DNA of 64,000 nt from Variovorax sp. PBL-E5 (GTDB lineage Bacteria > Pseudomonadota > Gammaproteobacteria > Burkholderiales > Burkholderiaceae_C): contig NZ_LR594671.1 of assembly GCF_901827185.1 (NCBI RefSeq), forward strand, positions 1,426,001 to 1,490,000, given 5' to 3'. The translations under genes were made by a program, and so were the position numbers. Of the stretch, positions 4,955 through 14,872 are shown piece after piece; position 1 is the stretch's first letter, and each line of letters opens with the position of its first letter. The notes below the pieces were generated by a model, which worked only from the letters and a program-made list of their open reading frames with translations, was not told the origin of the DNA and made no database searches.

Positions 4955-5848
4955 TCAATGCGGCACGCAGTGGGCGTCCGCCGACAGCCGGAAGGTGGTG
5001 CGCTTCATCAGGCGCGGCTGGTCGAGCTGCATCTCGTCGCGGCGGTGCATCGTGCAGCCGTTGTCCCACATCATCAGGTCGCCGTTGTGCACCTTGTGCC
5101 GATAGACCAACTCCGGGCTGCCGCCCGCCTCGAACAGGATCGGCAGCACGCGCGCGTTGTCCGCTTCGCTCAGGCCCTCGATCGCGACCAGCGTGGTCGG
5201 GTCGGCGTAGAGCGCCTTCCTGCCGGTGACCGGGTGGGTCAGCACGACCGGGTGGAAGGCATCGGGCAGCTTGGCCATTTCCCTGGCCTGCGGGCTGTCC
5301 TTGTCCTTGAGTTCGAGCGTGTTCATGATGGCCATGCGCTTTGCATAGCGGTAGGTGCCGGTGCGTCCGTCCACCAGCTTCTTCACGTCGGCCGGCAGGC
5401 GGTCCCAGGCGCCGTACTGGTTGGCCCAGTAGATGTCGCCGCCGCCCTTGGGCACTTCGACGCCGTACAGCATCGCGCCCGTGGCCGGCCGCACCTTGAA
5501 GGTCTGGTCGGAGTGCCAGTCCACGTCGTCGCCGCCGGCGAAGCCGCCGACGAAGCGGCCGTCCGCGTAGCGCAGGGTGCTGAAGTAGATGATCTCGTCG
5601 CGGTACGGCGACTGGATGTCCTTGCGGTTCGCGCTCTCGCAGCGGCCGAACATCTGCGTGAAGCGCACCTGCTCTTCCTCCTCGAGCGACTGGCGCCGGA
5701 AGATGATGAGGGGCGAGGTCTGCCAGAGTTGCCGGATCTGCTCGATCGCCTCGGGATCGGCCAGCAGTTCGTCGATGCGGTCCTCGATCTCGATGGCGAA
5801 ATCGGAATGCAGCTGGCGGTATTTCAATGAGTGGGCAATGGCGGACAT
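4955..5848 (-). CDS. TauD/TfdA-family 2-oxoglutarate dioxygenase
   Basis: A 297-residue Fe(II)/2-oxoglutarate dioxygenase. The facial triad is readable: His112 and Asp114 in DWHSDQTF, and His268 in MWDNGCTMHRRD. An Arg at 283 or 287 would hold the 2-oxoglutarate carboxylate. I use the ATG at 5848, preceded by GGAG; the frame is open far upstream without coding character. TauD/TfdA enzymes hydroxylate sulfonates, aryloxyacetates or similar acids and release an aldehyde or ketone. The substrate is unknown, but co-transcription with two uptake systems implies an imported carboxylate. Confidence 0.9.
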   Translation of the reverse strand: MSAIAHSLKYRQLHSDFAIEIEDRIDELLADPEAIEQIRQLWQTSPLIIFRRQSLEEEEQVRFTQMFGRCESANRKDIQSPYRDEIIYFSTLRYADGRFVGGFAGGDDVDWHSDQTFKVRPATGAMLYGVEVPKGGGDIYWANQYGAWDRLPADVKKLVDGRTGTYRYAKRMAIMNTLELKDKDSPQAREMAKLPDAFHPVVLTHPVTGRKALYADPTTLVAIEGLSEADNARVLPILFEAGGSPELVYRHKVHNGDLMMWDNGCTMHRRDEMQLDQPRLMKRTTFRLSADAHCVPH

Positions 5849-5907
5849 GGAAGAGCTCCTGGATGCTGGATGGGTGGCGGATTTCGGATGGGGCAGGCAG
5901 GGCCGTG

Positions 5908-6876
5908 TCAGTCGGCCTTCATGTGGGCGCTGCGGATGATGTCCGCGTCGGTGCGGCGTTCGGAGCGCAGCCATGCCACCAGCTGTTCGTGGTCCATGGC
6001 GGGCGCAGGCTCGAAGCCGAGGTCGTGCAGTGCCTTGGTCGTCTCGGGCAGCGCGAGGATCTTGCGCATCTCGGCGGCGAGCCGATCGCGGATCTCGACC
6101 GGCGTGCCGCGCGGCGCCATCAGTGCATTCCAGGCGACGACATTGAAGCCATCGAGTCCCTGCTCGGCCACGGACTTGATCTCGGGCAGTGCGGTCATCG
6201 GCTTGGCCGAGGTCACGGCGAGCGGCTTGATCTTGCCGAATTGGGACTGCGAAGCGGCCACGGTGTCGATCAGCACCGGCACCTGGTTGCCCAGCAGCGC
6301 GGTCATCGCCTCGCCCGAGCCCTTGTACTTGATGGCGAAGAGCGGCACGTTCTGCCGCTTGATCATCTCCAGCACGAGTTGCGCGGTGACGCTGGGCAGC
6401 GCGACGTCGATCTTGTCGGGCCGGCTCCTGGCCAGCTGGATCAGCTCGGGCAGGGATTTGATGTTCAGCGACGGATTCACCGAGATGACCATCGGAATGA
6501 AAGCCGTCGCGGTGATCGGCTCGAAGTCCTTCTCCGCATCGAAGCCCGTGTTGTCGTACAGCGCGGGGTTCAGGGCGTGCGTGCCCGAGGCGCCCATGAT
6601 CAGCGTGTAGCCGTCGGGCGTGGCGCGTGCGGCGTAGGCCGTTCCCATGTTGCCGAAGGCGCCGGGCCGGTTCTCGACCACCACACCCTCGTTCAGCGCG
6701 GCAGACAGCTTGGAGGCGAAGTAGCGCGTGGCGATGTCGGTGCTCTGCCCGGGCGGATAGGCGACCACGATCCTGATCGGGTGATTGGGATAGCCTTGTG
6801 CGAAGGCACTGCCCGCGATCGCGAGCGCCATCGGCACGGCCGCGATCCGGCGGACGAATCTGGCAAGAGAAATCAT
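5908..6876 (-). CDS. Bug/TctC-family tripartite tricarboxylate receptor
   Basis: A 322-residue periplasmic solute receptor of the Bug (TctC) family. The ATG at 6876 gives a Sec signal peptide (MISLARFVRRIAAVPMALAI... AFAQG) and overlaps the dehydrogenase stop as ATGA. Family signatures include YPNHPIRIVVAYPPG, VVVENRPGA and ARATPDGYTLIMG. No TctA or TctB membrane genes lie nearby, which is usual for the many orphan Bug receptors of this lineage. It may share membrane subunits or act in signalling. The operon also carries a complete TRAP system. Confidence 0.93.
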   Translation of the reverse strand: MISLARFVRRIAAVPMALAIAGSAFAQGYPNHPIRIVVAYPPGQSTDIATRYFASKLSAALNEGVVVENRPGAFGNMGTAYAARATPDGYTLIMGASGTHALNPALYDNTGFDAEKDFEPITATAFIPMVISVNPSLNIKSLPELIQLARSRPDKIDVALPSVTAQLVLEMIKRQNVPLFAIKYKGSGEAMTALLGNQVPVLIDTVAASQSQFGKIKPLAVTSAKPMTALPEIKSVAEQGLDGFNVVAWNALMAPRGTPVEIRDRLAAEMRKILALPETTKALHDLGFEPAPAMDHEQLVAWLRSERRTDADIIRSAHMKAD

Positions 6877-8066
6877 GTTTGTCTCCTTGGTGTTGGAATG
6901 AGCGGCTCCGTGTCGGCCGCCGTGCGCAGGTAGCGTTCGTCCAGCGCGTCGAAAGCGCTGCATCCGATCTGCGCCATGACCACGTCGATCTCGTGGCGCA
7001 CGATCTGCAGCGCGCGCGCGATGCCGCGCGCGCCGCCGGCCGCGGCGCCGAACAAGGTGGGCCGCCCGAAGAACGCGAATCGCGCACCCAGGCAGCGTGC
7101 GATGACGATGTCGGAACCGCGCCGCACGCCGCTGTCCACCATCAGCACCACCCGGTCGCCGACGGCCGCGCGGATCGCGGGCAGCATCTCGATGGGCGTG
7201 GGCGCGGTATCGAGCTGGCGGCCCCCATGGTTGGAGACCATGAGCGCATCGACGCCGATGGCCGCGGCCTCGCGCGCATCGTCGGGATGCAGCAGTCCCT
7301 TGACCACGAGCGGTCCGCTCCAGGCCGCGCGGATGCGCTCCAGCGTCTGCCACTTGATCATCGGGGCCGGCGTGAGCGTGCCGTAGAGATCGGCCACCTC
7401 GGCCGCCGAAGCGCCCGCGCGGCCGTACGGCGCCCAGTTGCTCATCATGGGAATGCCGCCCGTGCGCAGGTAGCGCAGCACCCAGGCCGGATGGCCGAGC
7501 GCCTCGAGCACCACGGAAGGCGTCATGCGGAACGGACGCGAGAAGCCGTTGCGGCGATTGCGCTCCCGGTTCGAGTTGACCGGGACGTCGACCGAGACCA
7601 CCAGCGTGCGCACGCCGGCATCGCGTGCGCGCTTCACCAGGTCGGTGTTGATGTGTTCTTCGCGCGTGCCGTAGATCTGGAACCAGACGTGTTCGGGCGC
7701 GAGCTTCGCCACCTTCTCGAGCGCCGCGTTGCTCGCGCTCGACAGCAGGAAGGGGATGTCGGCTGCCTTGGCCGCCTCGGCAAGTAGCTCATCCGCGCCG
7801 GGGTGGAAGAGCCCGGCCAGGCCGGTGGGCGAGATGCCGAAAGGGCTGGCATAGCGGCGGCCCAGGAGTTCGGTCGACTGGTCGCGTCGGGACACGTCGA
7901 CCAGGTAGCGCGGGACCAGCTGAAAGCGCCGGAACGCCGCGCGGTTGCGCCGCATGCAGTCCTCGTCGTCCACGCCGCCGTCGATGAAGTCGAAGGCGAT
8001 CCGGGGCAGCTTGCGCCGTGCCATCAGGCGCAGGTCCTCGAGGTTGATCGCTGTGTTCACGTTCAT
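6873..8066 (-). CDS. FMN-dependent alpha-hydroxy-acid dehydrogenase
   Basis: A 397-residue member of the L-lactate/mandelate dehydrogenase and glycolate oxidase family. The active-site block SNHGGRQLD is at 278-286 with catalytic base His280. Lys256 (VVKG) should contact flavin N1, and MVDSGVRRGSD is the phosphate loop. It oxidises a 2-hydroxy acid to a 2-oxo acid. It is the first gene of the eight-gene operon and lies about 30 bases downstream of the -10 of a promoter shared with two other units. LldD, MdlB and GOX-type proteins cannot be separated by eye. Confidence 0.92.
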   Translation of the reverse strand: MNVNTAINLEDLRLMARRKLPRIAFDFIDGGVDDEDCMRRNRAAFRRFQLVPRYLVDVSRRDQSTELLGRRYASPFGISPTGLAGLFHPGADELLAEAAKAADIPFLLSSASNAALEKVAKLAPEHVWFQIYGTREEHINTDLVKRARDAGVRTLVVSVDVPVNSNRERNRRNGFSRPFRMTPSVVLEALGHPAWVLRYLRTGGIPMMSNWAPYGRAGASAAEVADLYGTLTPAPMIKWQTLERIRAAWSGPLVVKGLLHPDDAREAAAIGVDALMVSNHGGRQLDTAPTPIEMLPAIRAAVGDRVVLMVDSGVRRGSDIVIARCLGARFAFFGRPTLFGAAAGGARGIARALQIVRHEIDVVMAQIGCSAFDALDERYLRTAADTEPLIPTPRRQT

Positions 8067-8098
8067 CGTTTCTCGTTCCGGAGTTGTCTCTCCATTCG

Positions 8099-8127
8099 AG
8101 AATATCGACCCCTCTTTTCGCTGCCCA
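8099..8127 (-). promoter_or_regulatory. Promoter of the hydroxy-acid dehydrogenase/TRAP operon
   Basis: On the minus strand a -35-like TGGGCA (8122-8127) and a -10 TATTCT (8099-8104) are separated by exactly 17 bases. The same arrangement is found at 18878-18906 and, with more divergent hexamers, at 14918-14946. It lies 33 bases before the ATG at 8066. Confidence 0.6.
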
Positions 8128-8143
8128 TAGGGCCCGGAAGCGG

Positions 8144-8162
8144 AGTTTCACAATTTGAACTT
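8144..8162 (-). promoter_or_regulatory. Candidate IclR-family operator, copy A
   Basis: The minus strand reads AAGTTCAAATTGTGAAACT, an imperfect inverted repeat 16 bases upstream of the -35 element. Near-identical sites at the same distance precede the amidohydrolase and the second Bug gene. A site upstream of a weak -35 suits an IclR-type activator. The binding protein is inferred from the neighbouring iclR-like genes. Confidence 0.55.
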
Positions 8163-8177
8163 CCAGGCGAATGCGCA

Positions 8178-9008
8178 CTAAGGGAATGCGGCCGGGGCCG
8201 CCGGCATCATCGAGCCGAGGAACTGGTGCGCATCGCTCTGCACCGCGGCCGCGACTTCGGACAGCGCCTGCCGGATCTCCGGCAGGCGCGCTTCGCCGAA
8301 CTGTTCCGGCAGCCCGGTCAGGACGACGGCGGCGATGGCGCGTCCATCGCCGCCGCACACCGGAACGGCGAACGCATGAACCCCGGGCACGACGTCGCCG
8401 AGATTGACGCCGAAGCCATGGCGCTGCGAACGCTCGCGCATCTTCCGGAGTGCGGCAAGGCGGCCGTCGCCGCGCTTGGCGATTTCCTGCTGCGTGTTGT
8501 CCGCGAGGATGTTCTCGGCTTCGAGCATGGGCAGCGTCTGCAGGATCGCCACGCCGCCGACCGAGGTGAAGAGCGGCCGCCGGGTGCCGACGTGCACCAT
8601 CAGGCCGCGCAGCTCGAGGGTGCCCTTGCGCACTGCGCACACGTACTCGTTGCCGCTGCGAAGGATCAGCCAGGCAATGGCCTCGGTCTGGACGGCGTAC
8701 TTCGCCAGGCGGCGTTCGCAGGCTTGGCGGAAGGTGGCATAGCCGGGAAGCGACAGGCCGAGCTCATAGAGCATCGGCCCGGGAAAGTAGTGCTTGTCCG
8801 CGGAACGTTGCTGCACGAAGCGTTCGCGCACGAGGCACGAAAGGATGCGATGAACCGTTCCCTTGTCCACTTCGCAGCGGGTTGCGAGGTCCGACAGCCG
8901 CCAGCCGAATTCGCCGCGCGCGGCCAGCTCGCGCAGGATGCGCAGTGCGCGCTCGATGCTCTGAGTTCCGTTGTGTTCGGGGGCTGGTGCGTTGTGCGAG
9001 GTTTGCAC
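8178..9008 (-). CDS. IclR-family transcriptional regulator
   Basis: A 276-residue regulator with an N-terminal winged helix-turn-helix (about residues 17-80, ALRILRELAARGEFGWRLSD) and a C-terminal IclR effector domain. It starts with GTG. It is clearly paralogous to the regulator at 15902-16723: both contain RPLFTS.GGVAILQTLP and RHGFGVNLGDVVPGVHAF. It ends just before the operator/promoter of the dehydrogenase operon and is read in the same direction, so it probably controls that operon. Confidence 0.92.
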   Translation of the reverse strand: MQTSHNAPAPEHNGTQSIERALRILRELAARGEFGWRLSDLATRCEVDKGTVHRILSCLVRERFVQQRSADKHYFPGPMLYELGLSLPGYATFRQACERRLAKYAVQTEAIAWLILRSGNEYVCAVRKGTLELRGLMVHVGTRRPLFTSVGGVAILQTLPMLEAENILADNTQQEIAKRGDGRLAALRKMRERSQRHGFGVNLGDVVPGVHAFAVPVCGGDGRAIAAVVLTGLPEQFGEARLPEIRQALSEVAAAVQSDAHQFLGSMMPAAPAAFP

Positions 9009-9111: not shown

Positions 9112-10023
9112 TCATGGCGATGCGCATGCGCGGGTCCCGCCCGCCAGTTCGAGTGCGCGCCTGAACTGCTGTTCCAGCGGGGCGGCGAAGAAGGCGGCGT
9201 CCTGTTCGGCGACGACTTCCGCGGCACGGATCTCCAGCAGGCGCCGCAGCCGGTAGCGTGCGCGCTGATCCTTCAGGCTTTGCCGGAGGTCGCCGGCTGC
9301 CAGCCACGACTGGTGGCGGTCGATGGCCTGCGAGAGCGCGTCGATGGATGCGGGCTGCGACGCCGATGCGAGCAGCACGGGCGGAACCCAGGCGCCCTGT
9401 GCGTGGCGCGTGATCGCCGCGATGCGCTGAATGTCGGTTGCCATCTTCCGTGCGCCCGGAAGATCGGCCTTGTTGACCACGAAGATGTCCGCCATCTCCA
9501 TGATCCCGGCCTTCATGGCCTGCACCGTGTCGCCGCTTTCCGGCAGCAGCACCAGCACGAGCGTGTCCACCTGCACGCGGGCCGCGTAGTCGGTCTGGCC
9601 CACACCCACCGTTTCGAGCATGACCTCGGCGAAGCCGAAGTCGTCCATCGCGTCGAGCATCTCGGGCAGGTTGTCCGCGAGCCCGTCCGAGGTCTTGCGC
9701 GAGCCGAGCGAGCGGATATAGAGCTCGGCCGCGCCGGCGAGTTCGTCCATGCGCACCCGGTCGCCCAGGATGGCGCCGCCGGTCTTCGGGCTGCTCGGAT
9801 CGACGGCCAGCACGCCGAGGCGGCCGCGGGCGGCGCGCGCGAGCGCCAGGTGGCCCAGCAGCGTGCTCTTGCCGGCGCCTGGCGCACCGGTGATGCCGAT
9901 CCGCCGGGCGCCGCATGCAGCCGCTTCGCGCAGCGGCCGTCTTGCGAGTTCGAGGGCGCTGGCATTCGTCAGCTGCGTGAGTGTGCGGCCGAGCGTCCTG
10001 CGATCGAGCGGCTTCGAAGTCAC
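9112..10023 (-). CDS. meaB: MeaB/ArgK-type GTPase chaperone for the acyl-CoA mutase
   Basis: A 303-residue G3E-type GTPase. Walker A GAPGAGKS is at 46-53, with VDPSSPKTGGAILGDRVRM, the switch-like ETVGVGQTD and base-recognition NKAD motifs. MeaB proteins gate loading and repair of adenosylcobalamin on acyl-CoA mutases. The GTG start (10023) overlaps the CoA-transferase stop as GTGA. It is the last gene of the mutase operon. The N-terminal helical region before Walker A is short compared with typical MeaB proteins of roughly 330 residues. Confidence 0.92.
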   Translation of the reverse strand: MTSKPLDRRTLGRTLTQLTNASALELARRPLREAAACGARRIGITGAPGAGKSTLLGHLALARAARGRLGVLAVDPSSPKTGGAILGDRVRMDELAGAAELYIRSLGSRKTSDGLADNLPEMLDAMDDFGFAEVMLETVGVGQTDYAARVQVDTLVLVLLPESGDTVQAMKAGIMEMADIFVVNKADLPGARKMATDIQRIAAITRHAQGAWVPPVLLASASQPASIDALSQAIDRHQSWLAAGDLRQSLKDQRARYRLRRLLEIRAAEVVAEQDAAFFAAPLEQQFRRALELAGGTRACASP

Positions 10024-11147
10024 GTCGAGGCCCAGCCCAGCACTTCGCCGCGGTGCTCGTCCAGCAGCGGCGGCAACCCGTACGAGGGTGTGAAGCCATC
10101 GAAGCGGATCGGGCTCGCGATGGCCCGCAACGGCAGATCGCCGTTGCCGAGCGGCACCACGAGCGACCGGTCCGCGGCGATGTCGCTTCGCAGCGCATCG
10201 CTCAGTGTTCCCACTTCCGCCACCACGAGCCCGAGCGGTGCCAGGCGGCTCACCCATTCGCTGGCGCGCGCGCCGGCGAGCACGGCCGCGATCGCCGCGA
10301 CGACCTCGGCGCGATGCGTGCGCCGGGCCGGCATGGTGGCGAACTTCGGATCGGCGGTCCAGTGCGACCGGCCGATCTCCTCGCAGAACTTCTTCCAGAA
10401 CCTGTCGTGCGTGATGAAGAGCGTGAGCCATCCCTGCGCCGTCGGAAAGATCTGCGCAGGCACGAGGTACGGATGCGACGAACAGGGCATCCGTTCGATC
10501 GTCTCGCCGGCATTGAGATCCGCGCCCGCCAGGTAGTTGAGCTGCGACAGCATCACGTCGTACATCGACACATCGACTTGCCCGCCGCGTCCCTGCACGA
10601 TCTTGGCGAGCAGGCCGAGCGCGGCCACCAGGCCGGCAGAGTTGTCGACCGCCGAATAGCCGGCCTTCGTCGGCGGCGAAGCGGGGTCGCCGGTCAGCGC
10701 CATCACGCCCGTCATCGCCTGGATGACGTAGTCGTAGGCCGGGTTTTCCGAGTACGGCCCTTCGAGGCCATAGCCGGTGAGGGCGACGCAGATCAGGCGC
10801 TCGTTCCATGGGCGCAGCGCATCGTAGGTGAGGCCGAGCTTGCGGATGGCCGAGGGGCGCAGGTTGGTCACGAGCGCGTGCGATCGCGCCACGATGCGGC
10901 CCAGCGCTTCGCGCCCTCCGTCGTCCGCGAGGTCGAGCACCACGCTTTTCTTGTTGCGGTTCAGGCTCGCGAAATAGGCGTTGTGCGGTCCGATGAAGTG
11001 AGGGCTGACGGTGCGGCCGATGTCGCCTTCGCGTGCCTCGATCTTGATGACCTCGGCGCCCATGTCGGCGAGCATCAGTCCGCAATAGGGGCCGGCCAGC
11101 ATGTGGCCGACCTCCACCACGCGGATCCCTTCGAGCGGTGCGTTCAT
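10020..11147 (-). CDS. CaiB/BaiF family III CoA-transferase
   Basis: A 375-residue family III CoA-transferase with the N-terminal GIRVVEVGHMLAGPYCGLMLADMGAEVIK-type fold and the DLADDGGREAL segment. A probable catalytic Asp lies in SAVDNSAG. Such enzymes move CoA from a donor, often succinyl-CoA, to a carboxylic acid via an aspartyl-CoA anhydride. The gene overlaps the B12 subunit gene by ATGA and the meaB gene by GTGA. It probably activates the acid that the mutase rearranges, or recycles CoA from the end product. Confidence 0.93.
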   Translation of the reverse strand: MNAPLEGIRVVEVGHMLAGPYCGLMLADMGAEVIKIEAREGDIGRTVSPHFIGPHNAYFASLNRNKKSVVLDLADDGGREALGRIVARSHALVTNLRPSAIRKLGLTYDALRPWNERLICVALTGYGLEGPYSENPAYDYVIQAMTGVMALTGDPASPPTKAGYSAVDNSAGLVAALGLLAKIVQGRGGQVDVSMYDVMLSQLNYLAGADLNAGETIERMPCSSHPYLVPAQIFPTAQGWLTLFITHDRFWKKFCEEIGRSHWTADPKFATMPARRTHRAEVVAAIAAVLAGARASEWVSRLAPLGLVVAEVGTLSDALRSDIAADRSLVVPLGNGDLPLRAIASPIRFDGFTPSYGLPPLLDEHRGEVLGWAST

Positions 11148-11563
11148 GCCAGGCGCTCGGCGAGGATGCGCACCACGTCGTCCAGCGGCATGTCGGCCGT
11201 GAAGATGGCGGCCGCGCCCAGCTGTCGCAGGTGCGGCTGATCTTCCGCCGGAATGGTTCCGCCGACGAAGACCTTGACGTCGCCTGCGCCGAGTTCGCGC
11301 AACTGCGCCATCACGTCCCCGACCAGCTCCTTGTGGCTGCCCGACAGGATGCTCAGGCCCACTGCATCGACGCCTTCGTCGACGGCCACCTGCGCGATCT
11401 GCTGCGGGCTGCGGCGAAGCCCCGTGTAGATCACCTCGGCGCCCGCATTGCGCAGCGTCAGCGCGACGATCTTCGCGCCGATGTCGTGGCCGTCGAGGCC
11501 GGGCTTGCCGATGAGGATGCGCTTGCCGGCCAGCGCGGGACGGGTCTGGAGGGGCGTGTTCAT
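11144..11563 (-). CDS. Acyl-CoA mutase small (B12-binding) subunit
   Basis: A 139-residue cobalamin-binding domain standing alone. The base-off/His-on signature is complete: DGHDIG at 24-29 with lower-axial His26, then LSILSGSH, then FVGGTIP. It would bind adenosylcobalamin and dock on the large subunit encoded immediately upstream, with an ATGA overlap. Split large/small mutases are known for isobutyryl-CoA, 2-hydroxyisobutyryl-CoA and archaeal methylmalonyl-CoA mutases. Confidence 0.95.
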   Translation of the reverse strand: MNTPLQTRPALAGKRILIGKPGLDGHDIGAKIVALTLRNAGAEVIYTGLRRSPQQIAQVAVDEGVDAVGLSILSGSHKELVGDVMAQLRELGAGDVKVFVGGTIPAEDQPHLRQLGAAAIFTADMPLDDVVRILAERLA

Positions 11564-13167
11564 AGATTCACCGGTTCCTTGAATTCGCCCCATTCCTTCT
11601 TGAGGCACGCGACCATCTCGCCGACCGTGGCGTAGGCATGGCAGCAGTCCACGAGAAAGGGCATCACGTTCTCGCGGTCCCTGGCAGCGGCCGTGGCGAG
11701 CCTGGCCAGCGATGCATCGACCGCCGTCTGGCTGCGCGTGTCGAGGACGCGCTGGAATTTCTCGAGCGCGCGCTGCGCCACCGTCGGGTCGAGCGTGAAG
11801 ACCTCGCCGACCTTGATCTCCTCGTCCGCCTTCCTGAAATGGTTCTGGCCGACGATGACCTGGTGGCCGGCGTCGATGTCGAGCTTGCGTTCGAGCCCGC
11901 GCTCGGCCAGGCGCAGCTGGATCCAGCCTTCCTCGATCGCGCGGGTCACGCCGCCGTAAGCCTCGATCTCGTCCATGACCTGCACGATCTTTTCTTCCAT
12001 GCGGTCGGTGTGCTGCTCCATGAAGTAGCTGCCGCCGAGGGGATCGACAGTGCGGGCGATGCCGCTCTCGTAGGCGATGATCTGCTGCGTGCGGACCGCG
12101 AGCTCGGCGGAGAACTCGGTCGGTATCTGGAAGGCTTCGTCGAATGCGCAGGTGAAGATCGATTGCGCGCCACCGAGCACCGCAGCCATGGTTTCCACGG
12201 CCACGCGCGCGATGTTGTTGTAGGGCTGCGGCGCGACCAGCGAAGACCCGCCGCAGACCACGCCGAAGCGAAAGTGCTGCGCCTTCGGATCCTGCACGCC
12301 GTAGCGTTCCTTCATCAGCCGCGCCCAGAGGCGGCGCCCGGCGCGGAACTTCGCGATCTCCTCGAAGAAGTCCATGTGGACGTAGAAGAAGAACGACAGC
12401 CGCTTGGCGAATTTCTCCACGTCGCCGCCGCGTTCGCGCAGCTCGTCGACATACGCCAGTCCGTTCGCCAGCGTGTAGGCCATTTCCTCGGCGGCCGTCG
12501 CGCCCGCGTCGCGGACGTGCGCGCCGGCGATGCTGATCGGGTTGAAGCGCGGCGAGACTTCGTTCGAGTACAGGATCGAGTCGGCGATCAGCCGCATCGA
12601 GGGCCGCACCGGAAAGATCCAGGTGCCGCGGGCGACGTACTCCTTGAGGATGTCGTTCTGGATCGTGCCCGTGAGTTTGCTGCGCGGCACGTTCTGTTTG
12701 TCGGCGACGGCCAGGTACATCGCGTAGACGATGGCAGCGGTTCCGTTGATCGTGAACGAGGTCGAGATCTTCGACAGGTCCAGCCCGTCGAACAGGATCT
12801 CGGCCTCGCTCAGGTTGGACAGCGACACGCCGACCTTGCCGATCTCGGGGCGGGCCATCGGGTGCGTGGGGTCCAGGCCGCATTGCGTGGGCAGGTCGAG
12901 CGCCACCGAGAGACCGGTCTGCCCCTTGGCCAGCAGGAACTTGTAGCGCGCGTTGGATTCCTCCGCGGTTCCGAAGCCCGAGTATTGGCGGATGGTCCAG
13001 AGGCGTCCCTGGTAGCCGTCGGGAAAGATGCCGCGCGTGAACGGGTACTCGCCCGGCGCGCCGATCTGCGCCGGGTCGATGGCCGCGGCCGCGATGCGTG
13101 CCGGTACTTCGACGCCGCTGCGGTTGACGGGGCGAATCTCGGGGTGGACGCTGGGTGTGCCGCTCAT
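11560..13167 (-). CDS. Divergent acyl-CoA mutase large subunit
   Basis: A 535-residue catalytic TIM-barrel subunit of the methylmalonyl-CoA mutase family, lacking a fused B12 domain. By eye alignment with P. shermanii MutB, Tyr62 (Tyr89), Gln170 (Gln197), Arg180 (Arg207) and His217 (His244) are kept. The Tyr/Arg pair is typical of enzymes that bind a free carboxylate. Other core positions differ: Ala216 for Tyr243, Gly302 for His328, Val304 for Gln330, Ser308 for Trp334, Phe338 for His364 and Cys340 for Asn366. The start at 13167 overlaps the crotonase stop as ATGA. I infer a succinyl-type CoA ester bulkier than that of classical MCM; plain MCM activity is not excluded. Confidence 0.92.
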   Translation of the reverse strand: MSGTPSVHPEIRPVNRSGVEVPARIAAAAIDPAQIGAPGEYPFTRGIFPDGYQGRLWTIRQYSGFGTAEESNARYKFLLAKGQTGLSVALDLPTQCGLDPTHPMARPEIGKVGVSLSNLSEAEILFDGLDLSKISTSFTINGTAAIVYAMYLAVADKQNVPRSKLTGTIQNDILKEYVARGTWIFPVRPSMRLIADSILYSNEVSPRFNPISIAGAHVRDAGATAAEEMAYTLANGLAYVDELRERGGDVEKFAKRLSFFFYVHMDFFEEIAKFRAGRRLWARLMKERYGVQDPKAQHFRFGVVCGGSSLVAPQPYNNIARVAVETMAAVLGGAQSIFTCAFDEAFQIPTEFSAELAVRTQQIIAYESGIARTVDPLGGSYFMEQHTDRMEEKIVQVMDEIEAYGGVTRAIEEGWIQLRLAERGLERKLDIDAGHQVIVGQNHFRKADEEIKVGEVFTLDPTVAQRALEKFQRVLDTRSQTAVDASLARLATAAARDRENVMPFLVDCCHAYATVGEMVACLKKEWGEFKEPVNL

Positions 13168-13949
13168 TTCTTGGCCTTGGACAACAGTTTTCCGGAGGCG
13201 CTCCAGTGGTCGTCGTGGAGCCATGTGTCGAGCAGTTGCCGCTGCTCGACAGCGCGGCAGTCCTCGAACGACGCGCCGCGCCGCCACGCCAGCGTCTGCG
13301 CCTTGATGCCGCGCAGCACTTGCGGCGCGCAGGCCAGCATGGGTTCGAGGAAGGCCTGCACGTCGCTGCCCGCGGGGCCGTCGCCGATGACGGCATCGGC
13401 CAGTCCCCAGGCCAGTGCCTGCTGCGCATCCACGAGCTCGCAGCGGCTCATCATCCGCATCGCCCGGGCGCCGCCGACGAGCCGGCAAAGATCCGGCCCG
13501 CCACCCCAGGCGGAGGTGATCGCGAGTCGGGCCTGGATGAAGCCGATGCGCGCGTGCGACGACTGCAGCCGCATGTCGCAGGCGAGCGCCAGTTCCGCGC
13601 CGCCGCCGATCGCGTCGCCGTTGAGCAGGGCGATGACGGGCACGGGACAGCCGCGGATGACGTCCAGCGCACCGCGCGCCTGGTCCGTCATGGCGCGGGT
13701 CGCGGGCTCGTCGCGAACGTCGGCCAGGTCCACCAGGTCACCGCCGGCTGCGAAGAAGCGCTCGCCGGCGCCGGTCAGGACGATGAGCCGGATCCCGTCC
13801 TGCGCACCGGCCTCGCGCACCGCGGCCGAAAGCGCTGCGAGCACCGGACGCGAGAGGGCGTTGTGCTTGTGCGCGCGATCGATCGTGATCCAGCACGCGC
13901 CGGATGCGCGCTGGTCGACCGTGATGTCTTGGCTGTTGGGCACTGGCAT
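13164..13949 (-). CDS. Crotonase-fold protein, possible acyl-CoA decarboxylase
   Basis: A 261-residue enoyl-CoA hydratase/isomerase-superfamily protein. The oxyanion-hole segments are present (ERFFAAGGDL; GDAIGGGAELALACD). The first hydratase glutamate is kept (Glu119), but the second (rat Glu164) aligns with Gln139, followed by an AWGGG turn. A lone-Glu site with a WGGG loop resembles malonyl-type decarboxylases such as ECHDC1 more than water-adding crotonases. It is first in the mutase operon, preceded by GGAG. E. coli sbm is likewise paired with a crotonase-fold methylmalonyl-CoA decarboxylase. Decarboxylase is a hypothesis; hydratase or isomerase remains possible. Confidence 0.85.
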   Translation of the reverse strand: MPVPNSQDITVDQRASGACWITIDRAHKHNALSRPVLAALSAAVREAGAQDGIRLIVLTGAGERFFAAGGDLVDLADVRDEPATRAMTDQARGALDVIRGCPVPVIALLNGDAIGGGAELALACDMRLQSSHARIGFIQARLAITSAWGGGPDLCRLVGGARAMRMMSRCELVDAQQALAWGLADAVIGDGPAGSDVQAFLEPMLACAPQVLRGIKAQTLAWRRGASFEDCRAVEQRQLLDTWLHDDHWSASGKLLSKAKK

Positions 13950-14119: not shown

Positions 14120-14872
14120 ATGTCAGCAGCCAGCGTCACCGCCGTCGACCGCGTCATCGACATCTTCGAAGCCTTCCAGACGAGCCAGCGGCCGCTGTCC
14201 CTCACCGACCTGGCCGAGGCCGTGGACATCCCGAAGAGCACCTGCCATGCGATCGTCGCCACGCTGACCGCGCGCGGCTACCTGTATTCGCTGACCCGGC
14301 CGCGCTCGCTGTATCCGACCAAGCGCATGCACGATGTGGCGCGCGACATCCTGGACAAGGATCCGTTCGTCGAGCGGATGACGCCGATGCTCGAACGTCT
14401 TCGCGACACTTCGCGCGAGACCATCATCCTGGGCAAGCGGCAGGGCGATTCGGTGGTGTATCTGCAGGTCTCGGAGAGCGAGCACTCGATCCGCTATTCC
14501 GCCAAGCCGGGCGACATCAAGCCGATGCATTCGAGCTCGATCGGGAAGGCCCTGCTGGGCTCGATGAAGGAGCCGGACCTGCGCGCGTGGTTCGAACACC
14601 GGGCATTGCCCTCCATCACCGCCGCGACGATCACGGATCCGGATGCGCTGATCGCCGACATCCTGCAAAGCCGGCGCGCCGGCTATTTCCAGACGCGCGG
14701 CGAGAACGTGAGCGATGTGTGGGCGGTTGCCGCCTTCTTCGCGGTTCACAACGAGACGCTGGCCGTGGCAGTGGCGGGGCCGAGGCACCGCATGGAGACC
14801 AGCCTCGCGGAGTGCGCGCAGTTGCTGGTGGCGACCTGCAGCTTCATTTCCCGCCAGTTCTCGGCCAGATGA
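14120..14872 (+). CDS. IclR-family regulator, divergent from mutase operon
   Basis: A 250-residue IclR regulator with its winged HTH at about 10-65 (AVDRVIDIFEAFQTSQRPLSLTDLAEAVDIPKST in register) and a C-terminal effector domain containing HSSSIGKALL. I use the ATG at 14120 with AAAGGGA upstream; a 45-codon extension upstream looks non-coding. Transcribed away from the mutase operon, with a perfect palindrome in the gap, it is the probable local regulator. It is not a close paralogue of the other two IclR proteins here. Confidence 0.9.
   Translation: MSAASVTAVDRVIDIFEAFQTSQRPLSLTDLAEAVDIPKSTCHAIVATLTARGYLYSLTRPRSLYPTKRMHDVARDILDKDPFVERMTPMLERLRDTSRETIILGKRQGDSVVYLQVSESEHSIRYSAKPGDIKPMHSSSIGKALLGSMKEPDLRAWFEHRALPSITAATITDPDALIADILQSRRAGYFQTRGENVSDVWAVAAFFAVHNETLAVAVAGPRHRMETSLAECAQLLVATCSFISRQFSAR

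Follow-up and report, generated by a model that had tools for sequence, protein, structure and literature searches.

Variovorax sp. PBL-E5 carries a five-gene operon built around a B12-dependent acyl-CoA mutase, and we asked which substrate this mutase acts on and what the genes around it contribute. The window, meaning the whole stretch of DNA that was analysed, was 64,000 nucleotides long. The operon lay on its minus strand at 9112-13949, in the order crotonase, mutase large subunit, B12 subunit, family III CoA-transferase, and MeaB-like GTPase. These genes and the nearest regulator gene were as follows.

13164..13949, minus strand: crotonase-fold protein, 261 aa (Pfam ECH_1), probable substituted-malonyl-CoA decarboxylase
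11560..13167, minus strand: acyl-CoA mutase large subunit, 535 aa, with a remodelled active site (Pfam MM_CoA_mutase, 636 bits; residue tally; trees)
11144..11563, minus strand: cobalamin-binding small subunit, 139 aa, with DxHxxG as D24-H26-G29 (Pfam B12-binding)
10020..11147, minus strand: family III (CaiB) CoA-transferase, 375 aa (Pfam CoA_transf_3)
9112..10023, minus strand: MeaB-like GTPase, 303 aa from a GTG start, presumably a chaperone that loads B12 (Pfam MeaB)
14120..14872, plus strand: divergent IclR-type regulator gene that may control the operon (Pfam domains IclR_C and HTH_IclR at 14126-14872)

The genes, frames, and coordinates all agreed with the original prediction, which had described five overlapping genes of these families. 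Each of the four junctions was a 4-bp RTGA overlap (ATGA or GTGA; 13164-13167, 11560-11563, 11144-11147, and 10020-10023), suggesting one translationally coupled operon. Downstream on the minus strand (4955-9008) were genes for a TauD dioxygenase, an FMN-dependent hydroxyacid dehydrogenase, another IclR protein, and what by eye is a TctC-like binding protein. IclR genes also adjoined the relatives L033 and L036.

A PF01642 domain and a DxHxxG cobalamin domain, located on separate subunits, placed the mutase in the AdoCbl-dependent acyl-CoA mutase superfamily, and by Pfam the large subunit had no B12 domain of its own. Pocket residues were placed by aligning the mutase to 1REQ chain A with HMMER and MAFFT, the 1REQ numbering being offset by +27. 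Compared to 1REQ, Y62, Q170, R180, and H217 were retained, as was E344 (E370). Six residues were replaced: Y243 by A216, H328 by G302, Q330 by V304, W334 by S308, H364 by F338, and N366 by C340. The pocket read Y Q R A H G V S F C E, versus Y Q R Y H H Q W H N E in methylmalonyl-CoA mutase (MCM). The by-eye mapping of the original prediction was right at all six replaced sites, and the alignment agreed with it on the equivalents of Tyr89, Gln197, Arg207, and His244. Its description of the replacements as small-for-large swaps held for five of the six; His364 became Phe, which is not small. The Tyr62/Arg180 pair, which we take to be the carboxylate site of the substrate, was present, in keeping with the earlier claim that a carboxylated acyl-CoA is still held. 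An AF2 model of the mutase had a pLDDT of 73.2 with 28 close relatives in its alignment and was too poor at the pocket loops to support docking.

We then compared the operon with 87 related loci, consisting of the best 80 from a search of genome contigs, in which more exist, together with L033-L036, L088, L094, and L096. Since L088 and L149 were one contig, and L126/L150 and L136/L177 looked like near-copies, the independent loci were fewer than 87. Their mutases were 68-93% identical to the query, and among the listed matches identity dropped from at least 68% in the relatives to below 50%. Y62, Q170, R180, A216, H217, G302, V304, F338, and E344 were invariant in 87/87 loci; S308 was found in 86 (Ala in one) and C340 in 76 (Ala in 11). 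All ten named pocket sites and E344 were also present in 119/119 database proteins, the best matches listed, at 86-95% identity. A pocket that is unlike that of MCM and yet fixed down to 68% identity pointed to a specific function of its own. Many more mutase groups of related genomes had other remodelled pockets at the same positions (L011, L029, L054, L081, L083-L087, L108, L031, L076, L112, and L028). One such pocket read Y Q R A H H G D Q P E, another Y Q R G H L H S G R E, and several of these groups look like unassigned specificities.

Counting the window's own genome, the clade was carried by 2/61 genomes of the genus, 3/349 of the order sample (in one case broken across two contigs), and 3/229 of the class sample. 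Some mutase match at the set threshold was found in 57/61 genus genomes, at 42-45% identity apart from the two carriers. The clade recurred across Alpha-, Beta-, and Gammaproteobacteria, in hosts from soil, groundwater, and sea; named hosts were Cupriavidus, Bordetella, Hydrogenophaga, Ramlibacter, Paraburkholderia, Bradyrhizobium, Halomonas, Billgrantia, Marinobacter, and Sulfitobacter. Four of the contexts examined were on plasmids or large secondary replicons. Given this distribution and these replicons, the operon looks like an accessory catabolic module.

The B12 subunit accompanied the mutase in 87 of the 87 loci, the crotonase in 81, the MeaB-like GTPase in 77, and the CoA-transferase in 72, some absences being due to contig ends. 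The full order of the query operon was kept in 62/87. After the B12 subunit, the crotonase was therefore the tightest partner of the mutase. Among the matches listed from plasmid records, the seven with a mutase above 70% identity were the same seven with a crotonase above 44%, the next crotonase being at 36%. No crotonase was seen at L119, L155, and L156 in the visible upstream DNA (1.5 kb at L155). In 15/87 loci (some at contig ends), no CoA-transferase was seen in the neighbourhood of the mutase, so the activation step may vary. At L175, an alkyl-sulfatase-like protein and an AMP-binding ligase occupied the usual place of the transferase. On one contig of Bradyrhizobium manausense the module occurred twice (L158 and L165), with about 31 kb between the copies, one with a CoA-transferase and TRAP genes, the other without a CoA-transferase and beside ABC-transporter, aldehyde dehydrogenase, and SDR genes (cluster labels). 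In a Rhodospirillaceae bin (L191, 4165-9176), a B12 subunit, two further mutase-like genes, and a MeaB-like gene lay directly upstream of the crotonase-mutase-B12 triad; of these two mutase-like genes, one had the pocket V Q L Q H H Q A H D E, the other L Q N Q H H Q S H D E.

D24, H26, and G29 of the small subunit were present in 87/87. The CoA_transf_3 domain and a conserved Asp assigned the transferase to family III; this residue, D168, presumably the catalytic Asp, was found in 72/72. The P-loop of the MeaB-like GTPase (G46, P48, G49, G51, K52, and S53) was intact in 75/77, with a gap in two, and the query protein scored below the NCBIfam MeaB equivalog cut-off (223.5 versus 240.75).

Gene neighbours were then counted in 88 neighbourhoods; the counts are rough owing to a simple gene caller, single-linkage clusters, and labels taken from one Pfam-tested member each. 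TctC, TRAP, or TAXI-like uptake genes occurred in 45/88. Other recurring neighbours were SDR (16), aldehyde dehydrogenase (14), 2OG-Fe oxygenase (12), FMN dehydrogenase (8, the window's own included), and the TauD family (8 others). None of these five families was general across the 88 neighbourhoods, and the neighbours did not fix the substrate. In four alphaproteobacterial bins (L152, L168, L174, and L182), a DIOX_N-type 2OG-Fe(II) oxygenase directly preceded the crotonase. In L152, L174, and L182 this oxygenase was itself preceded by one gene of a shared cluster, luciferase-like by Pfam on the L174 members.

We propose, at about even confidence, that the operon is a catabolic module for an imported carboxylic acid, which would be loaded with CoA, rearranged as a 2-substituted succinyl-CoA, and decarboxylated by the crotonase. 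The likeliest acid is a 2-substituted succinate, with an alkyl or aryl group as the substituent, or a compound that gives rise to it. The family III CoA-transferase would move CoA to the diacid, probably from succinyl-CoA, and the MeaB-like GTPase would load the AdoCbl mutase. The mutase would then shift the thioester, converting 2-R-succinyl-CoA to R-methyl-malonyl-CoA, with the R group sitting where MCM has His328, Gln330, Trp334, and Tyr243. The crotonase would decarboxylate this product to R-CH2-CH2-CO-SCoA and thereby pull the reversible mutase step forward, and general beta-oxidation would complete the breakdown. This pathway was preferred because it uses every gene and both the retained and the changed residues. 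The alignments favour it in two respects: the remodelled pocket is fixed while Tyr62, Arg180, Gln170, and His217 stay, and the IaaG and ethylmalonyl-CoA mutase (ECM) types, the two other groups here that presumably use substituted succinyl-CoA, depart from MCM at these positions as well. The co-occurrence of the crotonase, its loss of the second catalytic Glu, and the frequent uptake genes also speak for it.

The crotonase step was examined next. An ordinary enoyl-CoA hydratase requires two catalytic Glu residues, 144 and 164 in the rat enzyme, which correspond to Glu119 and position 139 here. Glu119 was retained in 81/81 crotonases, whereas position 139 was Gln in 75 (including Gln139 of the query, in the register given by the alignments), His in six, and never Glu. 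An ordinary hydratase was therefore rejected. E. coli ScpB, annotated as methylmalonyl-CoA decarboxylase, also had no Glu at the second position in an alignment at 25% identity. E235, W243, and H248 were invariant in the 81 crotonases, and position 148, usually within W148-G-G, was Trp in 71 and Phe in 10; these residues may resemble those of mammalian ethylmalonyl-CoA decarboxylase ECHDC1. An AF2 model (pLDDT 93.8) had the crotonase fold, and its nearest solved structures were mainly hydratases, with methylmalonyl-CoA decarboxylase not among the 50 fold matches listed in either search; fold comparison thus did not tell a decarboxylase from a hydratase. From its tie to the mutase and from the scpB logic, we infer that the crotonase decarboxylates the mutase product. 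The mutase could instead act as proposed beside a crotonase that is a thioesterase, an isomerase, or an unusual hydratase working before or after it. Crotonases without the second Glu include other activities, and the position of the gene as first of the operon and the hydratase-like folds are consistent with such a role, but its place matches the sbm logic and its conserved residues may resemble those of ECHDC1, and we consider this reading unlikely.

The place of the mutase in its family was examined with a 74-row tree and a careful 34-row tree. In both, the query clade was monophyletic with full support, and neither united it with the IaaG or ECM type. Grouping with MCM was rejected (AU p 0.014), while groupings with the IaaG type (0.171), the ECM type (0.192), and 2-hydroxyisobutyryl-CoA mutase (HCM; 0.145) were not. 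The larger, quick tree of 74 rows grouped the clade with IaaG and other remodelled rows at SH-aLRT 83-89%, a group that was not robust. Y243, H328, and Q330 of MCM were replaced, and the protein scored below the PRK09426 cut-off (551.6 versus 876). It had Y62 and R180 and lay outside the HCM clade (itself 100/100). The query formed a 100/100 clade separate from the IaaG type, and the ECM rows formed another 100/100 clade; none of the five operon proteins was an acyl-CoA dehydrogenase, although IaaGH would be accompanied by an IaaF-type dehydrogenase with GGG, and the small subunit was separate, unlike ECM. A second PF01642 protein in the same genome, on a 750-aa frame, had the canonical pocket. 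The phylogeny that the original prediction had named as its check thus did not place the large subunit inside characterised MCMs with the same residues, and pocket, trees, and the second canonical mutase bore out a specificity unlike that of MCM. We are highly confident that the enzyme is not an ordinary MCM.

Mutases of the hydroxyisobutyryl- and pivalyl-CoA kind bypass tertiary or quaternary carbons. The query could likewise use a different carboxylated acyl-CoA, such as 2,2-dimethylsuccinyl- or dimethylmalonyl-CoA with its quaternary carbon, and lift a block of beta-oxidation in either direction. The mostly smaller pocket residues and the HCM grouping that was not rejected fit such a role. 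HCM, however, retains the MCM residues at 302 (His), 304 (Gln), 338 (His), and 340 (Asn) and loses Tyr62/Arg180, and the query shows the reverse, leaving this substrate class improbable. An ordinary Sbm-type MCM (succinyl-CoA to methylmalonyl-CoA to propionyl-CoA, CoA being returned to succinate) would follow the step logic of E. coli scpA-argK-scpB-scpC with a 42% identical ScpA, but is very improbable given six fixed replacements in the pocket, the rejected union with MCM, the canonical mutase already in the genome, and a transferase from an unrelated family. Against the proposed 2-substituted-succinate pathway itself stand the low identity of the crotonase to ScpB, its hydratase-like nearest structures, the separation of the clade from IaaG and ECM in the trees, and the loci that lack a CoA-transferase or crotonase.

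To our knowledge, few acyl-CoA mutase specificities have been established. Clade members are often named 'methylmalonyl-CoA mutase' in databases, and with their recurrence in three proteobacterial classes they are probably mis-assigned to propionate metabolism. We suggest tentatively, at somewhat less than even confidence, that the operon represents an undescribed and widespread proteobacterial route for 2-substituted succinates, combining CoA transfer, B12 rearrangement, and redox-neutral decarboxylation by a dedicated crotonase in place of the oxidative IaaF step; its mutase would have a specificity not known from any characterised enzyme. If true, this would account for the entry of branched or aryl-substituted diacids into central metabolism, and the mutase with its enlarged pocket could serve in synthetic pathways. 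A literature search, with most subscription papers outside its scope, tied no publication to the operon, PMC11599936 included, and the spot table in the part consulted of a thiodipropionate proteome study in Variovorax contained no mutase (PMC6370202).

Several known systems resembled the operon in part. The E. coli scp (sbm) operon also combines a mutase, a GTPase, and a crotonase-family decarboxylase, and the Sbm-like label given earlier held for this step logic. It did not hold for all the parts: identities were 42% to ScpA, 36% to ArgK, and 25% over 169 aa to ScpB, ScpC had no homology to the operon transferase (E 0.19), and ScpA, unlike the query, has 714 aa and a canonical pocket. HcmAB (HCM, PDB 4R3U) was the best sequence match among solved structures (498 bits) and is also split into subunits, but has I62/Q180 in place of Y/R and the canonical H302, Q304, H338, and N340. 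One row that we take to be isobutyryl-CoA mutase from its residues F and Q retained His302 and Gln304, in line with what the original prediction had said of this enzyme. Ethylmalonyl-CoA mutase (MeaA/ECM) acts on methylsuccinyl-/ethylmalonyl-CoA. The rows that we take to be ECM from a sequence motif (L027, L032, and L114) had the pocket Y Q R Y H G Q L Q P E, which shares Gly302 with the query but keeps Gln304 and Tyr216; the ECM type was 38% identical to the query and, in one context (L113), had its B12 domain on the same frame.

IaaGH is the phenylsuccinyl-CoA/benzylmalonyl-CoA mutase of anaerobic indoleacetate degradation in Aromatoleum aromaticum. Our IaaG type (L046, L009, L050, and L051) was set by gene context and a GGG motif. 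The adjoining acyl-CoA dehydrogenases had GGG instead of YEG in 4/4, a mark of IaaF according to PMC8360864, where IaaGH is proposed to rearrange a 2-substituted succinyl-CoA. Around one such sequence, Pfam identified hydantoinase A and B, molybdenum hydroxylase subunits, and a family III CoA-transferase. The likeness to this step noted in the original prediction was upheld, with IaaG recognised by context: the pocket (Y Q R Y H I G/A G A C E) was changed at the same positions (I302, G/A304, G308, A338, and C340), Cys340 being common to both, the subunits were likewise split (L090 and L103), the query was 44% identical over 526 aa to an IaaG-type protein, and the nearby family III CoA-transferase was 30% identical over 294 aa. 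Unlike the query, the IaaG type keeps Tyr216, and its operon has the IaaF-type dehydrogenase, hydantoinase, and molybdenum hydroxylase, with no crotonase among its labelled genes. MatB/ActD of matlystatin and actinonin biosynthesis are proposed to convert hexylmalonyl-CoA to 2-pentylsuccinyl-CoA, and MatB, like the query, has a separate B12 subunit, MatQ (PMC5719088). As described there, and compared by description rather than sequence, these enzymes differ from the query in being biosynthetic, actinobacterial, and accompanied by a carboxylase-reductase. With IaaGH, MatB/ActD, and ECM already reported or proposed as mutases of 2-substituted succinyl-CoA, the earlier claim of a new substrate class was overstated; what would be new here is the decarboxylase-coupled module and the exact substrate.
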